Source: Bacillota bacterium (GTDB taxonomy: Bacteria > Bacillota > Sulfobacillia > DUMF01). Taken from it: 64,000 nt of DNA. The notes beneath the pieces were generated by a model. The model made no database searches. It was not told where the DNA came from and saw only the letters and a list, made by a program, of their open reading frames with translations. Each line of letters begins with the position of its first letter. The stretch's first letter is position 1. Location of the stretch: contig DUMF01000016.1 in the NCBI GenBank assembly GCA_012840015.1, forward strand, positions 1 through 64,000. Reading direction: 5' to 3'. Position numbers and translations under genes: made by a program. This document shows positions 1,317 through 63,857 of this stretch, in pieces.

Positions 1317-1432
1317 GGCAGAGTAGGGATTGCGCGTAAAGTGCCACCGGATGGGAAGTTGCCGGTGGACGAAGGGACGACGAGCATAATCGTGTTCTAG
1401 AGTCCCGCGGTGCAAAGCCCGCATCCGCTGCC
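1317..1432 (+). ncRNA. tetrahydrofolate (THF) riboswitch aptamer
   Basis: The sequence opens with GGCAGAGTAGGGATTGCGCG, contains GGATGGGAAGTTG and GGACGAA, and closes with GCGGTG...GCATCCGCTGCC. The outer GGCAG/CTGCC helix, the AGAGTAG and GCATCCGC core elements and the GGATGGGAAGTTG hairpin match the THF riboswitch class. It lies 80 bases before a folate-type ECF transporter gene, the expected target. Downstream, CTCCTCCTA (1457-1465) is perfectly complementary to TAGGAGGAG (1494-1502), which holds the folT ribosome site, so control is probably at translation. Confidence 0.9.
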
Positions 1433-15860: not shown

Positions 15861-16474
15861 GGTTGGACTGTGGGCTTATTCGGCTTTCCAATACGATCCT
15901 AAAGCTGTTCCTGGCATTCTTCGTGAATGTCAACACGATAACCCTGTTCAGCGAGCAGGTCTCTAGAGGGCGCCGTCAACCGAAAGCTCGCGGACGGTAA
16001 GATAGCATATCCCGCACGTGCCTTTGCACCTTGAGTGTGCATGTGTTGCCGCTGAAGCCTTGGTGAAGCGCCTCAAGCAGCACATCTAGCCCTCCCGGAA
16101 GCGGAAAGTAACGGATCCGGTGCTCCCCCCGCCCCTCCCGTCGGAGGGCTCCGCACATCCCTCGCGGGGAATCCATAAGCCTTCACTGAGTCGCGGAGAG
16201 GAGTCTCAGTTCAGGCGAGCCTACCTCATGCGATCGTCACAGAGCTTCTTGTTATCCTCTGCAACTCGTACCTATCCGAGTCAGTCAACAGGTCGAAATC
16301 ACACACCTCCAGTTTCGAGGTGCCTCAAACCGACTTTGTTGAACTCCTCAACAGCCACCCGTAGCAGGCTCTTGAATTCCTCCAAACCGCAGCTGCCACA
16401 GCTGTTGAGATCTTCGACAGTCCTGTCCCATCGACTGTACGGCCAGCCCGCAGTCTATCCGCCCAAGCGTTGAC
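15861..16474. other. gene-poor region with decayed coding traces
   Basis: No intact gene. On the plus strand near 16320-16420 frames give TDFVELLNSHP, then QALEFLQTAAATAVEIF and DSPVPSTV with stops and shifts between them. On the minus strand a frame ending about 15900 reads APSRDLLAEQGYRVDIHEE. The pieces look protein-like in composition but I do not recognise them. Confidence 0.4.
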
Positions 16475-16727: not shown

Positions 16728-17627
16728 ATGGCAAACGAGCAGCCAAAAGCCGAATATTGGGACGACCGGGGTGGCAATCCGGTGGATTGGCCTGAAAGCG
16801 CGGGTAGCCACCTGCTGGCAGAAGTCCGTTTCTGGACAAGGATCATGAGAGAACATGCGATGTTCATAAAACTGGGCCTACCCTTTGACCGGCCTGACCT
16901 CATAAGGGAAGCTCAGGCGCTTGAACAGAGGCTCCTAGACCTCGAAGAAAGGGTGAACCGTGCTACAGTACTGGATCCCAATCTTCTTGCCACTTTGCGG
17001 CAGGTTGTGGCCGACCTCATCGATTTCAAGTACCGGCTCCTGCGCCTGATGCTGCAGTCCCAGCTGCGCCCCGCCTTGCTTCCGCTACTTATCGACCATA
17101 TAACTCGTGAGGCAGTCCACTTCCTCACACGCCTTCAAATGGTTATTGAACTGCCGCCAGAGGAAACTCATCGTTTCCGCGCTATTATGCGGCGCGCAGT
17201 CTTTTGGATGCGTATCATGAAGGAACACGTCGAATTCATAATACACCTGCTCGACCCGTCGGAGAGGGCACTCATTGCCCAAGCCGAGGAGTTCCTCAGA
17301 ACCTTTACGCGCCTGTTCCAGACGGCCATGGACCTGGAGTCGATGTCAGAAGCGCGTCCCGAGTCCTTCAATACGGTCGCCAGGTTCCTAGACGAAGCCA
17401 TCGCCAGGACGACTGAACTGCGTGACTTCAAGGCCGCAGCTCACGAGCTCCTCCTCATGAGCCAGATCCTCAGCACGGTTTCCACACCTGTTATTGCCGA
17501 CCATCTCCGGCGAGAGGCTGATAGGGCCCTCTTAGAGCTTCGCGCGCTGAGGGATCGTATTCGCGTTGAAAAGCCACTAATCGAACCGTCCGTACACGTG
17601 GGTGTTAAGCCGAGCGACATGCGGTGA
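16728..17627 (+). CDS. DUF2935 domain protein
   Basis: 299 residues, two DUF2935 repeats in an all-helical ferritin-like arrangement. The first begins LLAEVRFWTRIMREHAMFIK and the second RRAVFWMRIMKEHVEFIIHL, the repeated E/R-x-FW-x-RIM-x-EH pattern being typical. The conserved His and Glu may bind metal. The family occurs in spore-forming Bacillus and Clostridia and has no proven role. The ATG at 16728 follows GAGGGGGTG. It stands alone between two regions of gene wreckage. Confidence 0.85.
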   Translation: MANEQPKAEYWDDRGGNPVDWPESAGSHLLAEVRFWTRIMREHAMFIKLGLPFDRPDLIREAQALEQRLLDLEERVNRATVLDPNLLATLRQVVADLIDFKYRLLRLMLQSQLRPALLPLLIDHITREAVHFLTRLQMVIELPPEETHRFRAIMRRAVFWMRIMKEHVEFIIHLLDPSERALIAQAEEFLRTFTRLFQTAMDLESMSEARPESFNTVARFLDEAIARTTELRDFKAAAHELLLMSQILSTVSTPVIADHLRREADRALLELRALRDRIRVEKPLIEPSVHVGVKPSDMR

Positions 17628-18119
17628 CCCGTTAGAATGCTACTTTACGAACGCGGCGAGATCAGAGTCCCCAGCGGGGTCCCCGAGAGTCTGTAAAAGC
17701 AGCTCTGTGCCCAAGGTCATCTGTGGTCACTTTGCCGTAAGACCGCGACGTTTCTGGCCACCTCAGTGATAACGATCGTGCCCGAAGTTGCTTTCGAAGC
17801 GGCTGCCGATGGTTGACCGTATGATGGGAAATCGCCTTTCTCTCCCTTCTGCCATTTTTCATTCGCTCAGAGCTGATTACGGGCTTGGACGTCGTCCACC
17901 TCGTAGGTCTGTTATTGGAGCTGTTAGAGACTGCTGGAGCGGGGAATCTATGCTCGAGGGCAGAGGCTGAGTGCCTTCTTTGCTTCTTCTCAATCCGAGG
18001 ACAAGCTCAAGAGGGGCCCGCGTTACACCTGCTGGCCATTTCTCAATTGCGGACACAGCCCACCGGTATACATCCTGGTCCCCCGGGTACGCGTACTAAC
18101 GGCCTAATGCATAAACATC
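17628..18119. other. gene-free region before the lgt relic
   Basis: About 490 bases with only short unconvincing frames on both strands. I see no ribosome site, no conserved motif and no repeat. It is probably decayed DNA. Confidence 0.45.
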
Positions 18120-18329
18120 CGCAGCGCAGTTAGGCCCGGGCGCATCTTCTCGCTTTACATGCTCATGTATTCAGCGTTGCGTTTCGCTGTAGAGTTCCCG
18201 CGGGGTGAACCAGCGGTAATGCTGGGGTTGACAGCCGGGCAGATCGCAAGCCTCCTCATAGCCGCGATTGCAGGCGCTGCTGTAGTTCTTAACAGGCATC
18301 CGCGCCACGCACACCGCTCTAGCAGATGA
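18120..18329 (+). pseudogene. C-terminal relic of prolipoprotein diacylglyceryl transferase
   Basis: The frame reads RPGRIFSLYMLMYSALRF, AVEFPRGEP and GLTAGQIASLLIA, ending with TGA at 18327. This is the last transmembrane part of Lgt (pattern G-x-x-F-x-x-Y...RF-x-x-E-x-R-x-(D/E)...GLT-x-x-Q). The frame is closed by a TAA just upstream and the first three quarters of lgt are absent, so this is a tail fragment. It is antisense to, and touches, the damaged 3' end of the radical SAM gene. Confidence 0.8.
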
Positions 18330-19341
18330 ATCCTCTCCCGGCGTCTGCCTCCTGGCCGTCAGGATGGCCAGCTCCTTTTCGAATGCCTTGCGAGTCTTCC
18401 CTTCCCCGGTGATGGGCTACGCTTTGGCAGTGTGGTGCGGAGGTCTCGAAAACCATCGAACAGCATTCGTACCTGACGTTCACCGAGTACCCCTTTTGCG
18501 CGGCGTACGAGACCAGACCGTCCGACGGGTATGCGATCCCGTCGAATCCCAGATCCACCGCCATCTTCTCCAGTTCGTGCCCGTAAGAGCCAGGAGGCCT
18601 GGCGCATCCGAGCAGAAGGGGCACGCGAACGAGCCTCGATCTGGCGTAGGCGAACACTTCTCGCACCGAATCGAGAACGGGCGGCGCCACACCTTCCATC
18701 GGGGTACCACGCGTGGGTTTTAGCACCACGAGGACGGCGGAATTCACTGGGACAGAAGCTATCATGTCAATAGCTTTCATTTCACCCCGAATGTGCCCGT
18801 AGTCAAGGCCGATCACCACGTGGGGGCTCATCGGAACTCCGGCATCAGCAAGGTTGAGCAGAGATTCGAGGTACGCGCTGGGGCCGGCGGGAAGGTGGCA
18901 GACGCGATTCAGCGTTTCCGCGCTGCCGACAATGTCAGTCATCGCCACGGCCACTTTCGCCCGCTTCAGCGAGAGAGCCGTGCGCCGCGAGACTATGCCA
19001 GTGTGGACGGCGATCCGCAACCCTAGTTCCTCTCTGGCGAACTTCATCACATCTTCGAATGGCTCTAGGGGAACCCTTCCGCCAGCATCTGACCCGCCAG
19101 TGATCAGCGCTCCTGTGCATCCGTCGGCGGCCAGGCGAACGAGGAGGTCTTTCAGTACATCCGGGGTTTCTGCGCTGAACATGGACTCCAGTATCTTCGC
19201 GCTGCAGTGATCGCACATGAGCGAGCAGGTGGTCCCCGTCACCGATATGGGGACGAAGGCGGGACCCGCCATGGAACATACTTCGCCGGTCTCAAAATGT
19301 TTAAGGTTTGGAACGAAGAATGTAATCTTCAGTAGGTCCAT
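18319..19341 (-). CDS. radical SAM protein, candidate lipoyl synthase subunit (LipS-type)
   Basis: 340 residues. A radical SAM cluster motif TTCSLMCDHCSAK (CX3CX2C) and GALITGGSD lie near the N-terminus, and SPHVVIGLDYG and VVLKPTRGTPM follow. It overlaps by 13 bases a second radical SAM gene and follows a lipoate ligase, the company expected of the two-protein lipoyl synthase LipS1/LipS2, which inserts two sulfurs into octanoyl groups. Which of the two it is cannot be told here. The C-terminus looks frameshifted: after about 18418 the natural-looking sequence PITGEGKTRKAFEKELAIL is in another frame. The gene may be damaged. Confidence 0.7.
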   Translation of the reverse strand: MDLLKITFFVPNLKHFETGEVCSMAGPAFVPISVTGTTCSLMCDHCSAKILESMFSAETPDVLKDLLVRLAADGCTGALITGGSDAGGRVPLEPFEDVMKFAREELGLRIAVHTGIVSRRTALSLKRAKVAVAMTDIVGSAETLNRVCHLPAGPSAYLESLLNLADAGVPMSPHVVIGLDYGHIRGEMKAIDMIASVPVNSAVLVVLKPTRGTPMEGVAPPVLDSVREVFAYARSRLVRVPLLLGCARPPGSYGHELEKMAVDLGFDGIAYPSDGLVSYAAQKGYSVNVRYECCSMVFETSAPHCQSVAHHRGREDSQGIRKGAGHPDGQEADAGRGFIC

Positions 19342-20486
19342 AGTTGTGCCTCTATCTTTTCAATGTCTTCCTTCTCAGGTAAGAATGGATAGCTCCTGAT
19401 GTCCTCACCAGGCATGGAGTCGCCATATGGCCGGTTGCACGCGAGGCTGCCGTCGCGCCCGGGGCATCCGCTGGTCATGAACGGCTTCCCGCCGCGGATA
19501 ACCTGTCGCAGCAGTTCAGACTCAACCCCGAACTGCCTGATCCTATCCTGGTCATCGAAAACCATGTTGTCGAACGACGCCAGGCCCTCATCCATGAGGT
19601 ACCTTACGAGCTGTATCCGTCGATAAGTGGAGGCGCTGGGTTGAGGGCGGTCTTCCATCGCGGAACCCGCCTCAGGGTAGAACGAGAAAAGGTGGGTGGA
19701 ACCACCCGCCTGCTTAACCCGCCATATCATGCTTGACATTTCCCGTTCAGTCTCGCCGAGGCCCACTATCAAATGAACGCCCACGAATCCCGCGCCGAAT
19801 ATGCTTAGTGCGTCCTGGAATATCTCCCAGTAATGGGGCCACCTGTGTGGGCCCCTGACGGAGGCACCTCTAATCTTCTCGAAGAGCTCTGGGGTGGGAA
19901 GGTCGAACGCTACACCGATTCGCTCTGCTCCGGCCTGTTTCAGGGCCAGCAGATCCTCGCGCTTCATTACCGTCGGCGAAATCAGGACGGAGATGGGCAG
20001 GTCGCAGGCCTCCCTCGTCAATCGTACGACCTTGATGCTGTCTTCGACCGCCCTCTTTTGGGTGATCATGGAGATGCATACTCTCTTCAACCCGTGCTCT
20101 CCTTCTCGGAGGGCCGACAGCACCTGTTCCAGGGGATATACGGGCCATGCCACCCGGATGAAACTCTGGCCCCTTTTTCCGATTCTTCTCTCGCGGGCCA
20201 GCCCGCAGTACTGGCAATTTCCCGCACACCCGTTTCTGTATGTGAGGAGGATGTTAAGGCAGCCCAGCGTTGCCCCCCTGTAGAACTGGCCGGGTTTAAA
20301 TCCCAGGCTCATCGCGGCTGCGAGGCTGATCCTCACTACTTCGGGGCTCTCCACTTCGCGGCTCTCCGCGCCGGGGCGCTCAGCCCGAACATCTTTCGTG
20401 TCGGAGCTTTCCAGTCTGGGTTCTTCCCCGCACAGCGTCTCCATAGCCCTATCTTGCACCTCCGTTACTCGTCTTACGTCCTGCAT
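19329..20486 (-). CDS. radical SAM protein, candidate lipoyl synthase subunit (LipS-type, BioB-like)
   Basis: 385 residues. A Glu-rich N-terminal tail is followed by a radical SAM domain with NGCAGNCQYCGLAR (CX3CX2C), VCISMITQKRAVED and VGVHLIVGLGETE. Near the C-terminus two further cysteines occur in FMTSGCPGRDGSLACNRPYG and may bind an auxiliary cluster. The layout is biotin-synthase-like, as described for LipS proteins. It overlaps the lipoate ligase by 13 bases upstream and the other radical SAM gene by 13 bases downstream, so all three are one tightly coupled operon. The lipoyl role is inferred from family type and neighbours. Confidence 0.75.
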   Translation of the reverse strand: MQDVRRVTEVQDRAMETLCGEEPRLESSDTKDVRAERPGAESREVESPEVVRISLAAAMSLGFKPGQFYRGATLGCLNILLTYRNGCAGNCQYCGLARERRIGKRGQSFIRVAWPVYPLEQVLSALREGEHGLKRVCISMITQKRAVEDSIKVVRLTREACDLPISVLISPTVMKREDLLALKQAGAERIGVAFDLPTPELFEKIRGASVRGPHRWPHYWEIFQDALSIFGAGFVGVHLIVGLGETEREMSSMIWRVKQAGGSTHLFSFYPEAGSAMEDRPQPSASTYRRIQLVRYLMDEGLASFDNMVFDDQDRIRQFGVESELLRQVIRGGKPFMTSGCPGRDGSLACNRPYGDSMPGEDIRSYPFLPEKEDIEKIEAQLWTY

Positions 20487-21556
20487 TTCCTACGGCTGTG
20501 TACCTCCTCCGAGTTCATGCCTGCGCTGTAGATGGCTTCGGCCAGCTGCTCCGTGCCTATACGGGCCAGCAACGGGCTGTTGACAGCCTCAAGCGCCGCC
20601 TGGATGGACTTCTTTATGAGGGGTTTCCACTTTAGCGCGGCTTCCAGGGCGAAAACGTCCTGTTCGGACGCGAAGAAGTCTCCGTGCACCAGCAGGCTCG
20701 AAATGGTACCTTTGACGGTGGCCACGCTGACACGGATGAGGCCAGCGGGTGTTTTGAACGCCGCCTGGCCCGTACGCTTCGGAGCCTGTACCAGGTACAC
20801 CCACTCGTCCTTGCCGTACTTGGATTCGGCCAGGTGCTGTATAACCTTCAGTTCGGCGTTTGTCAGCCGCTCCCTGGAGAATTTCACCCCGAAACGCTCG
20901 GAGAATGCTGCGATGATGGCCTGCCGGACCGCCTCCATTGGGACTGGACCACATTCCTTTCTGACCGTCGTGATCCTATCCTTAAAGGAGGCTATGGCCT
21001 TATCCGCAATCTTAATGGAGGGGAGCTTCAGGAGGCGTAGCATCAGATCTGCATCGAAATCGACGAGGGTGCTGGCGTGAAACAATAAGATGCTCTCGTG
21101 TTCGAGATCCGAACCGATCCCCGCGATCTTTCTGCCCCCGACCTCGATGTCGTTCTTGGGGCGGTACGAAGCGGGTAAGCCCAGGTCCCTTAGCCCGCGG
21201 GCCAGTATGTTTCCGAAGGTGGCGAATATGGCGTCCGGTTCTCCCCCGACGTTCAGCAGGCTAAGGGGTGCCACGAAAGCCAGGCCCAGGCACCCTTCCG
21301 ACATGAAGATGGCCCCGCCGCCCGTCGTCCGCCTGTTAATATCGATGCCCAAGCTGCGGCATTCCTCCACATCGACCTCGGAGTGCACATCCTGGAACCT
21401 CCCGACGATCACTGCGGGCTTGAAGGTATAAAGATGCAGTGTTGGCGGAGCGCCCCTGGAGACAAAGTCGATGAGCGCCTCATCAACTGCAAGCCCAAGC
21501 GGCGCGGGACAATTGTCCTCCACTACCACCCTCCATTTGTCCAACCCATGCCCCAC
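20474..21556 (-). CDS. lplA: lipoate-protein ligase family protein
   Basis: 360 residues of the LplA/LipB/BirA fold. GLAVDEALID, the lipoyl-AMP loop RRTTGGGAIF, KNDIEVGGRKIAGIG with the catalytic-type Lys, and a C-terminal accessory domain (AAFKTPAGLIRVSVATVKG) are present. It activates lipoate or octanoate with ATP and transfers it to lipoyl domains of GcvH or 2-oxoacid dehydrogenases. As first gene of an operon with two radical SAM proteins it probably loads the octanoyl group that they sulfurate. The frame from 21556 begins MGHGLDKWRVV with GAGG nearby. Confidence 0.85.
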   Translation of the reverse strand: MGHGLDKWRVVVEDNCPAPLGLAVDEALIDFVSRGAPPTLHLYTFKPAVIVGRFQDVHSEVDVEECRSLGIDINRRTTGGGAIFMSEGCLGLAFVAPLSLLNVGGEPDAIFATFGNILARGLRDLGLPASYRPKNDIEVGGRKIAGIGSDLEHESILLFHASTLVDFDADLMLRLLKLPSIKIADKAIASFKDRITTVRKECGPVPMEAVRQAIIAAFSERFGVKFSRERLTNAELKVIQHLAESKYGKDEWVYLVQAPKRTGQAAFKTPAGLIRVSVATVKGTISSLLVHGDFFASEQDVFALEAALKWKPLIKKSIQAALEAVNSPLLARIGTEQLAEAIYSAGMNSEEVHSRRKCRT

Positions 21557-22360
21557 CTCTTGTTGGGGACTCTACTGTGTCTCAGCTGAGGTCCAATCAC
21601 CAATCACCCTGTCTGAACATTGATTCGGCGCCGGCGACCCACTTTCCTTCACCGTTCGCAATCACTTTGCTTTGAAGCCACCTGGACACGCTGACGGATC
21701 TTGTGGGGCGGGTGTCACCGTCCCGCAGCACTTCTTATGCTTGCGCCTGCTTCCGCACCAGCATGGGGGTCATTACGGCCCGGTGGCCAAGCGACTGTCT
21801 TGCCACGTGATGCAAGCACAGCGGCATACCGGAACCGTGTCCCGGGAGTCCCCGGGTCCAGCGCTCCCCATTTCGTCTCATTAGAGACTTAAGGTGAGGC
21901 CCACCATCTCCGCCGCGCTAGCTGCGGAGATGGCAACGACCAGGGCTATAATGATGGCTTAACTAGCAGGTTCCTCCAAGATCCCTGCCCGGCCATCGAA
22001 GGACTCCCCTCTGCCCCGCTGCATAGACCGTTCGAGCCATATAACCTCTGCAGCCAGCCCGATCTTCCCCAGCCCAACGAAGAGATTGCAGGCGTCAGGG
22101 CCTTTGAGCCGCCTTGTAGCACCCCAAACCAATAGGCACAGACCTCTTCCAGGAAAACCGTCCCACGGTTTGCAGGCCCTAGGAAGCCGATCTTGTCCCA
22201 TAGCTATGGCCTTGGCCTCTGGCTTCTTACAGCTCAATAAAGACTTCACCATACTCCAATACCGGCCTCCAGAATCCTCCCGACTTTCGCTGCGTATTTT
22301 GGTCACCAAGCAGGAAACTTTACAGTAATGTAGAAGAATGAATGGCAGTGGAGGCATGAA
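21557..22360. other. gene-poor region with relics
   Basis: About 800 bases without an intact gene, apart from a SEC-C relic (given separately). A perfect 10-bp hairpin, CCATCTCCGC/GCGGAGATGG, lies at about 21910-21940 without a T-run. A 132-codon minus-strand frame at 21959-22357 has no ribosome site and a low-quality composition; it includes a protein-like stretch GPDACNLFVGLGKIGLAAE but I do not recognise it. Confidence 0.4.
21662..21769 (-). pseudogene. SEC-C zinc-motif tail fragment
   Basis: On the minus strand a short frame after a TGA reads PPCWCGSRRKHKKCCG, the SEC-C metal-binding motif (CxCxSGxxxKxCC type) found at the end of SecA and of YecA-like proteins, and ends with TGA at 21662. 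Nothing upstream continues it, so it is a fragment. Whether it came from secA or another protein cannot be said. Confidence 0.6.
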
Positions 22361-23101
22361 ATGCTACGGTGGAGTAGGAAAGCTATCGGGGTGCTTGAGG
22401 AGATAATCGGGGCAGTGATTATCGTGACGGTCCTCTGGTTATCCCGGCCTTCTAGTGCCTGTGCAGGTACCCTACTCAAGATCGGCTCCCAAGGGGAGAC
22501 GGTGCGTTCAGTGCAATATTCGTTGAGTAAGCTCGGCTATTACTTCGGCCCCGTCGACGGCAAATTCGGACCTGCTACCAATGCTGCAGTGATAAAATTC
22601 CAGAAGGCCAGCGGTCTAAAGCCTGATGGATTGGTCGGTAATGCTACTCTTCAGGCCCTGCAACGAGCCTCCGGCGTGAGTTCGCGTTCGTCTACCGCGC
22701 ATAAGTCAGGTTCCTCGCCCGCTCCGGCGGCTTCAGGCCAGCAAGTGGCGGATATTGCCAAGACGTATCTTAACACGCGTTACGTATGGGGCGGTACCAC
22801 TCCAAAAGGTTTTGACTGTTCGGGGTTTGTCTACTACGTTCTCAACGCCTCGGGGATAAAACTTTCTCGCGATATTGCCGTTCAGTATAGATCAGGCGAG
22901 TCTGTAAAAAAAGAAAACCTAGCACCAGGCGATTTGGTTTTCTTCACCACTTATGCTCCGGGGCCTTCTCACGTTGGGATTTATATTGGAGACGGGCAGT
23001 TCATCCACGCCTCATCTGCAGGGGGCAAAGTGATTATTACCCCGTTGAACAAACCTTACTATACTCAAAGGTGGATCGGAGCCAGGAGAGTTGTCAAATA
23101 A
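22361..23101 (+). CDS. NlpC/P60 endopeptidase with peptidoglycan-binding domain
   Basis: 246 residues. A hydrophobic N-terminal segment (about 12-36, ending SSACAG) is a signal peptide or anchor. A PG_binding_1 domain follows (about 42-100; LLKIGSQGETVRSVQYSLSKLGYY), then a Ser/Pro-rich linker and a C-terminal NlpC/P60 domain with FDCSGFVYYVL (catalytic Cys), SHVGIYIGDG (His) and FIHASS (His). It cleaves D-Glu-diaminopimelate bonds in wall peptides outside the membrane. The ATG at 22361 follows GGAGGC. Its end overlaps the convergent sirtuin gene by eight bases. Confidence 0.92.
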   Translation: MLRWSRKAIGVLEEIIGAVIIVTVLWLSRPSSACAGTLLKIGSQGETVRSVQYSLSKLGYYFGPVDGKFGPATNAAVIKFQKASGLKPDGLVGNATLQALQRASGVSSRSSTAHKSGSSPAPAASGQQVADIAKTYLNTRYVWGGTTPKGFDCSGFVYYVLNASGIKLSRDIAVQYRSGESVKKENLAPGDLVFFTTYAPGPSHVGIYIGDGQFIHASSAGGKVIITPLNKPYYTQRWIGARRVVK

Positions 23102-23846
23102 CTCCTCTGTGCTCCAGTTCCGCGCTTAACGCTTCCATCACTTCCCCTGCCCGGCCGTGTATCACCACCGCAGCTGCAGCATCATATGGAGTAGGCTCGA
23201 GGTTCACTATCGCAAGTTGTCCAGCCAACCGCGGTAAATATGCAGCCGGGACTACCTGAAGGCTAGAACCGATCACTAGCATCAGATCAGACTTGCTCGC
23301 TTCTGTAACTGCCTCTTGAAAGGCAGGCGGCATCGGATCCCCGAACAAGACCACGTCCGGCCTGATGATACCTCCGCAGGAGCACTTGGGTGGGATAATA
23401 CCTCGCTTTACCTGGGATTTGATCTCTGCAAAAGGATACTTCCTGAAGCACTGGGTACACGTGGCGTCGCGCAGATTGCCGTGGACCTCGATGACCTTTC
23501 TGGAGCCTGCCTGTTGGTGCAGGCTATCGATATTCTGCGTTATGACTGCCTTCAATATGCCGGCTTCCTCGAGCCTGCCCAAAGCTTTGTGGGCCGGGTT
23601 CGGAGATACTTCTCGAAACGCCCCGAGCAAGTCTAACCCCTGCGTGTAAAAAACCTCTGGCCTAAACTGGAGTGCCTCGGCAGAAAGTACTTCCATAGGG
23701 TCTACGCGTTCCCACAGCCCCGTGCCGGGGCTCCTGAAGTCTGGAAGGCCGGATTCCGTAGAGATTCCTGCTCCCGTGAGCGCTACCATATACTTCGATG
23801 CTGCCACGAGATCGGCAAGCCTATCTATCTCTGGTTGCTGGTTCAT
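23094..23846 (-). CDS. cobB: NAD-dependent protein deacylase (sirtuin)
   Basis: 250 residues of the Sir2 family. GAGISTESGLPDFRS, TQNIDSLHQQAG with the catalytic HG in VIEVHGNL, a zinc site CTQC...CSC, and GSSLQVVPAA are present. It removes acyl groups from lysines with NAD consumption, forming O-acyl-ADP-ribose, and often controls acyl-CoA synthetases. The second zinc pair is CSC rather than CxxC (KCSCGG), a common variant. The ATG at 23846 is preceded by AGGAGAATTCC. It precedes no obvious partner; cobO lies just upstream on the same strand. Confidence 0.95.
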   Translation of the reverse strand: MNQQPEIDRLADLVAASKYMVALTGAGISTESGLPDFRSPGTGLWERVDPMEVLSAEALQFRPEVFYTQGLDLLGAFREVSPNPAHKALGRLEEAGILKAVITQNIDSLHQQAGSRKVIEVHGNLRDATCTQCFRKYPFAEIKSQVKRGIIPPKCSCGGIIRPDVVLFGDPMPPAFQEAVTEASKSDLMLVIGSSLQVVPAAYLPRLAGQLAIVNLEPTPYDAAAAVVIHGRAGEVMEALSAELEHRGVI

Positions 23847-63309: not shown

Positions 63310-63857
63310 GCATGTTCTATCGTTGCGCGGTGGCCTGACAGTGAGTAAAACCTACGGCTTAAGGTCCAGCAGGCTTTCCCTGCCGGCCACCCGCCGTCGC
63401 CGAGCGGGCGGTTTCCCTTTAAGGCCGCTCGACCCCGTCACCGAAGGCCGCGCTGGATCGCCACTTAGTCCGTACTTTAATCCTCCCTGTCAGCCCCGCC
63501 GGGGACAGCCTAGAAGTTTTCCTTTTCGATCAGCACTACCCCTAGCCCCTTTTGCAGTGCCGATTTCGGCACGAGCCTCCCTCAGGCACCGCTCAGGGCA
63601 GGCTACTCTGCAAGCAGTGTGCTCCACCTGCAGGTTATGCTCGCACCGCTCGTGCAAGCCTCACGGAGATAGGGACTTAACCTGCATGCCGTTGCAGGCC
63701 ACCCCATCCCCTTCCCGCCTGCCCGGACCGGTCGCTGGGCCGCCACCAGCCCGCACAAGCGGTTTCATCGGTATGCCCTCTACGGCTTTTTAGGTCCGTT
63801 CTTGGGATAGCCAGTATCGACTAGGATACTGCGCCACCGCGCTAAAAACAGCCTAGT
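63310..63857 (-). ncRNA. OLE (ornate, large, extremophilic) RNA
   Basis: About 550 bases of GC-rich, highly structured non-coding DNA on the minus strand between an extended -10 promoter and oapA. The 5' end forms a hairpin with GACTAGG/CCTAGTC arms. Many more helices can be drawn, for example GCCGGCAGGG-type and GGCACGAGCC-type stems. No open frame with a ribosome site runs through it. Its place ahead of oapA and dxs is the known OLE location in Firmicutes. Ends are approximate. The identity rests on context, size and structure rather than an alignment. Confidence 0.78.

Follow-up and report, generated by a model that had tools for sequence, protein, structure and literature searches.

The 64,000-nucleotide stretch of DNA analysed here (the window) comprises positions 1 to 64,000 of the forward strand of contig DUMF01000016.1 from a Bacillota bacterium (GTDB lineage Sulfobacillia, DUMF01; assembly GCA_012840015.1), whose genome (G000, 2.04 Mb) is 96% complete. 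Its minus strand contains, at positions 18319-21556, a trio of genes for lipoyl assembly: a lipoate-protein ligase of the sLpl(AB)-like type (20474-21556, 360 aa), a LipS2-like radical S-adenosylmethionine (SAM) protein with predicted sulfur addition at C8 (19329-20486, 385 aa), and a LipS1-like radical SAM protein with predicted sulfur addition at C6 (18319-19341, 340 aa). All three open frames are intact, the gene order is ligase-lipS2-lipS1, and each junction is a 13-bp overlap, in agreement with an earlier reading of the bare sequence (the original prediction). The pathway type is already known; the radical SAM proteins of the window belong to a divergent branch of LipS1/LipS2, referred to below as type b.

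Domains and ligand residues of the trio

The ligase matches LplA-B_cat (PF21948, 137.5 bits) and Lip_prot_lig_C (PF10437, 31.4 bits), both above the cut-off; the LplA catalytic and LplB accessory domains therefore lie on one chain, the arrangement by which sLpl(AB) is recognized. It contains the motif RRTTGGGA and the catalytic-lysine motif GRKIAGIG (residues 141-148). The best NCBIfam match of the 385-aa protein is LipS2 (222.3 bits, equivalog cut-off 270), and that of the 340-aa protein is LipS1 (214.8 bits, equivalog cut-off 230). Because both scores are below the cut-offs, the pair was classed as a divergent LipS1/LipS2-like subgroup. The LipS2 cut-off of 270 is likewise missed by seven further type-b proteins (206-245 bits). 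The proposed identity as LipS1/LipS2 with a ligase is thus supported by the best-matching profile families and by the ligand residues, but not at the level of the NCBIfam cut-offs.

The ligands of the window proteins were equated with residues of Thermococcus kodakarensis by motif and spacing. Both proteins contain the radical SAM motif CX3CX2C, as had been predicted, at residues 87/91/94 in the LipS2-like and 39/43/46 in the LipS1-like protein. The auxiliary ligands of the former are C137, H238, C341, and C350, and mutagenesis of T. kodakarensis LipS2 showed that C85, C276, C279, and probably H178 are needed for its auxiliary cluster (PMC9585515). The LipS1-like protein has C246, C293, C294, and H174, which include the late extra cysteines noticed in the original prediction; the T. 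kodakarensis counterpart needs C230, C276, C277, and perhaps H159 (PMC9585515). CX3CX2C and all auxiliary ligands are invariant in the alignments of 14 type-b proteins each. The sole clear ligand difference is in the last cysteine pair of LipS2, C341-C350 in GCPGRDGSLACNR (19437-19466, minus strand), which is CX8C in type b versus CX2C (GCPxCNR) in canonical LipS2. The window LipS2 also has a longer N-terminus than the T. kodakarensis protein, and the order ligase-lipS2-lipS1 is different. A structure model of the LipS2-like protein is of moderate confidence (predicted local distance difference test score, pLDDT, 63), and its C-terminal loop, at below 50, is too uncertain for conclusions on the CX8C geometry; the solved folds closest to the model include LIAS/LipA, while a sequence search of PDB with LipS2 yielded no relative. 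The LipS1-like protein extends about 42 aa beyond CCSMVF (18322-18447, minus strand), whereas its relatives end within a few residues of CCS.

Two lipoyl-assembly sets and two LipS types

LipA is absent from the genome at its 96% completeness, the best TIGR00510 match (25 bits) being far below the cut-off of 310. A second LipS1-LipS2 pair is encoded on contig C12 (80.5-82.2 kb) in the operon gcvT-gcvH-gcvPA-gcvPB-lipS1-lipS2-LipM-like-glyA (about 78-87 kb, L012). Its LipS2 scores 306 bits, above the cut-off, and its LipS1 182 bits, below it; the accompanying protein is read as LipM-like from its single domain and the cysteine motif SLCFEAASSY. The genome has two complete lipoyl-assembly sets, one of them for glycine cleavage, and because of the latter the trio is not the general LipA substitute of this organism. 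The suggestion that the trio is an alternative to LipA is therefore right insofar as LipA is missing, but the trio is not the only lipoyl synthase. An identical reaction is expected of the two sets; however, the canonical one differs from the trio in the separate clades of its LipS2 and LipS1, in having a LipM-like transferase where the trio has an A+B ligase, and in its host-like GC content at third codon positions (GC3). LipA itself would give the same product as a single protein.

Two further ligases are present in the genome: C2 encodes a stand-alone LplA (TIGR00545, 418.5 bits), and C29 encodes one with A and B domains. There are also one full-length copy of dihydrolipoyl dehydrogenase and two GcvH-like carriers in total. 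A PF00364 search of the genome recognized no E2 lipoyl domain: the two best matches were biotin carriers (EAMKM), and the rest were weak and partial, one being the glycine-cleavage GcvH.

Type b is sharply delimited. Among 151 genomes of the same class, 15 (including G000) match the window LipS2 with at least 317 bits, while the rest have at most 157; an alignment-based search of 398 genomes of the phylum showed the same gap (at least 469 versus at most 194). The LipS2 tree, which lacks sequences from Proteobacteria and from a wider range of archaea, splits type b (36 rows) from the canonical type (21 rows) at 100/100, and the LipS1 proteins of the same operons are split congruently (100/99). 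The window LipS2 has 33% identity to the canonical C12 protein. Since LipA is also present in 12 of the 15 same-class genomes with type b, the latter is usually an extra set, and eight genomes of the phylum besides G000 contain both type-b and canonical LipS2. Nevertheless, a genome can rely on type b alone for lipoyl synthesis, as both LipA and canonical LipS2 are missing from G016 and G037.

The trio has the three highest GC3 values among the 33 window genes measured (0.677/0.699/0.740 versus 0.574 +/- 0.031 for the 30 other genes; z 3.3-5.4), and the window LipS2 is sister to LipS2 of a Thermoplasmata metagenome-assembled genome (96/93) and not to its class-mates. These two observations support horizontal acquisition, which is plausible and had been suspected earlier, also from a higher GC content. 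The LipS1 tree leaves the position of the window LipS1 unsettled. A plasmid search for reference LipS2 gave, among the matches listed, only MSMEG_0568-type proteins.

Carriers and the genomic company of type b

Each of the 14 other type-b genomes of the class has LipS1, LipS2, and a window-type ligase in one cluster. In 13 of them this cluster includes a GcvH-like gene, as a rule with another ligase-like gene ahead of it; in the exception, G037, the cluster is at a contig end. At least two GcvH-like copies were found in 15 of 15 type-b genomes (2-6 per genome) versus 23 of 136 others (Fisher p 9e-11, kinship among genomes ignored). Several of these genomes also encode complete sHdr-like clusters of the order hdrC1-hdrB1-hdrA-hyp-hdrC2B2, with LbpA-like genes and a ligase coming next (L059, L095, L096, and L103); a cluster resembling them directly adjoins the lipoyl genes in L050. 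In other Bacillota classes, a GcvH-like gene is near 13 of 20 type-b loci, glcD and glcF are present at seven, and hdrC-hdrB-hdrA at three. A recurrent cluster of these classes (L142, L144, L148, L149, L150, L151, and L157) combines glcD, glcF, and a GcvH-like gene with a ligase and type-b lipS2-lipS1, in most cases with a LipT-like gene as well; a frequent but not constant order at the glcD-glcF loci is glcD-glcF-carrier-ligase-LipT-like-lipS2-lipS1. The three loci with hdrC-hdrB-hdrA have the order carrier-hdrC-hdrB-hdrA-ligase-LipT-like-lipS2-lipS1. The LipT-like protein of L144 is a flavin adenine dinucleotide (FAD) protein of the geranylgeranyl-reductase family. The comparative context ties this clade to GcvH-like carriers outside glycine cleavage and to redox enzymes of the Hdr or glycolate-oxidase (GlcDF) type.

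Other ligase-like proteins were also noted. A protein of about 325 aa is encoded upstream of the carrier gene (L051:6923-7900, equivalents in L050-L062); a pattern search of the L055 copy found no catalytic-lysine motif and no LipM-type cysteine. Ligases of 520-550 aa occur in L049 (4452-6014), L050, L144, L149, L151, and L153; the L049 copy, the only one scanned, has a C-terminal DUF116 domain (PF01976), and the others are of similar length.

The only GcvH-like protein of the window genome outside glycine cleavage is encoded on contig C29 (L014:9084-9521), in the order lctP-like/glcD/glcF/ldhH-like/carrier/ligase/hdrD-like, where the names glcD and lctP come from sequence and orthologous context. 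The end of C29 cuts the hdrD frame short, and an end of C12 opens with an hdrD-like fragment containing the CCG half that is missing there; the next gene is HdrA2-like (856 bits). As hdrD is split across both ends, they very probably join, giving glcD-glcF-ldhH-carrier-ligase-hdrD-hdrA2. The join is supported by G035, a genome of the same class, which has an unbroken run glcD-glcF-ldhH-carrier-hdrD-hdrA2 (L098; 69, 52, 68, 57, 45, and 72% identity to the G000 queries). A search for CCG domains in G000 revealed them only in glcF, ldhH, and hdrD of this locus and no sHdr HdrB-type gene.

The GcvH proteins of glycine cleavage form one clade (100/100) with the lipoyl motif ESVK, which is replaced by ESGK, ESAK, or ETGK in most of the other carriers. 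The C29 carrier (ESGK68) is outside this clade and groups with carriers of G035, G018, L153, L154, and L156 (99/76, in a short alignment); those of L153, L154, and L156 share a cluster with type-b LipS genes. Two cysteines are a hallmark of LbpA (PMC6067878), and most sHdr-linked carriers in related genomes show them as C7 and C142-149, whereas the C29 carrier has a single cysteine (residue 19) and lacks the conserved N- and C-terminal pair. G000 thus has an LbpA-like carrier that lacks both the LbpA cysteines and accompanying sHdr genes.

Proposed function and its alternatives

Taken together, the gene content and context suggest that the trio is probably a lipoylation module dedicated to an Hdr/CCG-linked GcvH-like carrier outside glycine cleavage, its enzymology being assigned by homology and its pairing with the C29 carrier indirect. 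The steps are modelled on the characterized system (PMC9585515, PMC10332631), and we infer the catalytic activities, the order of reactions, the acceptor in G000, and the carrier role. The overlapping genes are probably translationally coupled. The ligase would activate octanoate (or lipoate) with ATP and load it onto the lysine of a small GcvH-like carrier; the LipS2-like protein would then act on C8 and the LipS1-like protein on C6, each inserting sulfur from its own auxiliary [4Fe-4S] cluster by radical SAM chemistry. Glycine cleavage would use its own LipM-like, LipS2, and LipS1 proteins, and the trio would be the second, dedicated set. The acceptor would be an LbpA-like GcvH homolog (ESGK) partnering Hdr/CCG-type oxidoreductases, most probably the carrier of the C29/C12 locus. 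More tentatively, a GcvH-like lipoyl protein of anaerobic Bacillota, with a ligase and type-b LipS1/LipS2 of its own for maturation, could act outside sulfur oxidation as a disulfide electron carrier between a 2-hydroxyacid dehydrogenase of the GlcD/GlcF/LdhH type and HdrA2-type flavoproteins.

Several observations weigh against a dedicated module. Both radical SAM proteins score below the equivalog cut-offs, and the LipS1-like protein has its unusual C-terminal extension. The acceptor candidate has its own adjacent ligase, and tblastn of both GcvH-like proteins against the window gave no match, so that no acceptor adjoins the trio. Extra GcvH-like genes are also present in the 23 sampled genomes without type b mentioned above. 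G035 carries the orthologous carrier locus but only canonical LipS2; a C29-type carrier thus does not require type b. Finally, the GC3 of the C29 locus is host-like while that of the trio is foreign, and since only the trio is compositionally foreign, the two were probably not acquired together.

Some of these points would also fit a redundant general lipoyl synthase and ligase, acquired by chance, with no dedicated acceptor and acting on any carrier, the GcvH of glycine cleavage included. The lack of an adjoining acceptor, the presence of just two GcvH-like carriers and no recognizable E2 in G000, the ability of G035 to cope with one canonical set, and the role of type b as sole lipoyl synthase in G016 and G037 all speak for it. 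However, we consider this explanation unlikely, given the coexistence of type b with LipA in 12 of its 15 same-class genomes and with canonical LipS2 in eight others of the phylum, and its consistent linkage to carriers outside glycine cleavage.

Much less probable is that the trio is decaying or non-functional after transfer. Its foreign GC3, the run-on of LipS1, and the missing adjacent acceptor could be read in this way, and so could its surroundings. The flanks are gene-poor, as the neighboring open frames of 82-132 aa (16120-16473, 17885-18133, and 21959-22357) match no Pfam family, and a simple scan of 17600-22400 found no promoter-like site. Against decay stand the three intact frames, the 13-bp overlaps, and the retention of every catalytic ligand. 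It is similarly improbable that the radical SAM pair makes a sulfur-inserted product other than lipoate, with the CX8C loop reflecting a different substrate: divergence of the clade, the low scores, and the altered loop between auxiliary ligands could hint at this, but the conservation of ligase and GcvH-like genes beside type b indicates a carrier-bound octanoyl substrate, and type b occurs in genomes with sHdr clusters, LbpA of sulfur oxidizers being a protein that needs lipoate (PMC6067878).

Among other genes near the trio, a DUF2935 protein is encoded in the gene-poor part (16728-17627, plus strand); its GC3 (0.637) is the fourth-highest measured. A Sir2-family gene (23094-23846, minus strand) is located 1.5 kb upstream of the ligase on the same strand, with no sign of a link to the trio. 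SirTM-type systems consist of a sirtuin, LplA2, GcvH-L, and a macrodomain protein. Such a system was rejected by inspection of the sequence, not by a profile: the Sir2 neighbor carries the ordinary QNIDSLH motif, and its surroundings showed neither a GcvH gene nor one for a macrodomain. The window also contains a full-length OLE RNA (RF01071, 366.7 bits; 63314-63853, minus strand) and a tetrahydrofolate (THF) riboswitch (RF01831, 78.8 bits; 1317-1432, plus strand).

The closest known counterpart of the proposed dedicated module is the sLpl(AB)-LipS1/LipS2 pathway of sulfur oxidizers (PMC10332631, PMC6067878), in which the sHdr-LbpA system was described (PMC6067878). Common to both are an A+B-domain ligase clustered with two radical SAM proteins, a link to GcvH-like LbpA, and, in relatives of G000, a link to sHdr genes. 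G000 differs in that the CCG search found no sHdr HdrB-type gene, lipT is not beside the trio, the candidate acceptor lacks the conserved C-terminal cysteine, and the trio coexists with a canonical LipS1/LipS2 set and not with LipA. LipS1/LipS2 have been surveyed across GTDB, Firmicutes included (PMC10332631), and type-b sequences may be among those data; the sLpl(AB) ligases of that survey fall in an archaeal-derived clade 3. A lipoyl-bearing GcvH was also proposed as a possible disulfide for HdrB/HdrABC-type complexes of Culexarchaeia (PMC9723716); there the context is that of an archaeal hydrogenase, and the available part of that report describes no dedicated lipoyl-assembly genes. A limited search of the literature for lipoate carriers associated with dehydrogenases of glycolate or lactate returned nothing relevant, which is weak evidence of novelty.

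Lipoyl synthesis by LipS1/LipS2 is recent knowledge, hitherto tied mainly to archaea and sulfur oxidizers, and the presence of two such sets without LipA in one genome separates housekeeping from dedicated lipoylation. For bacteria without sulfur oxidation, GcvH-like lipoyl proteins become directly testable candidates for the disulfide with which Hdr-type enzymes react. If true, their role as electron carriers would be a new one for lipoate and would answer the question of what the Hdr enzymes of non-methanogens reduce.

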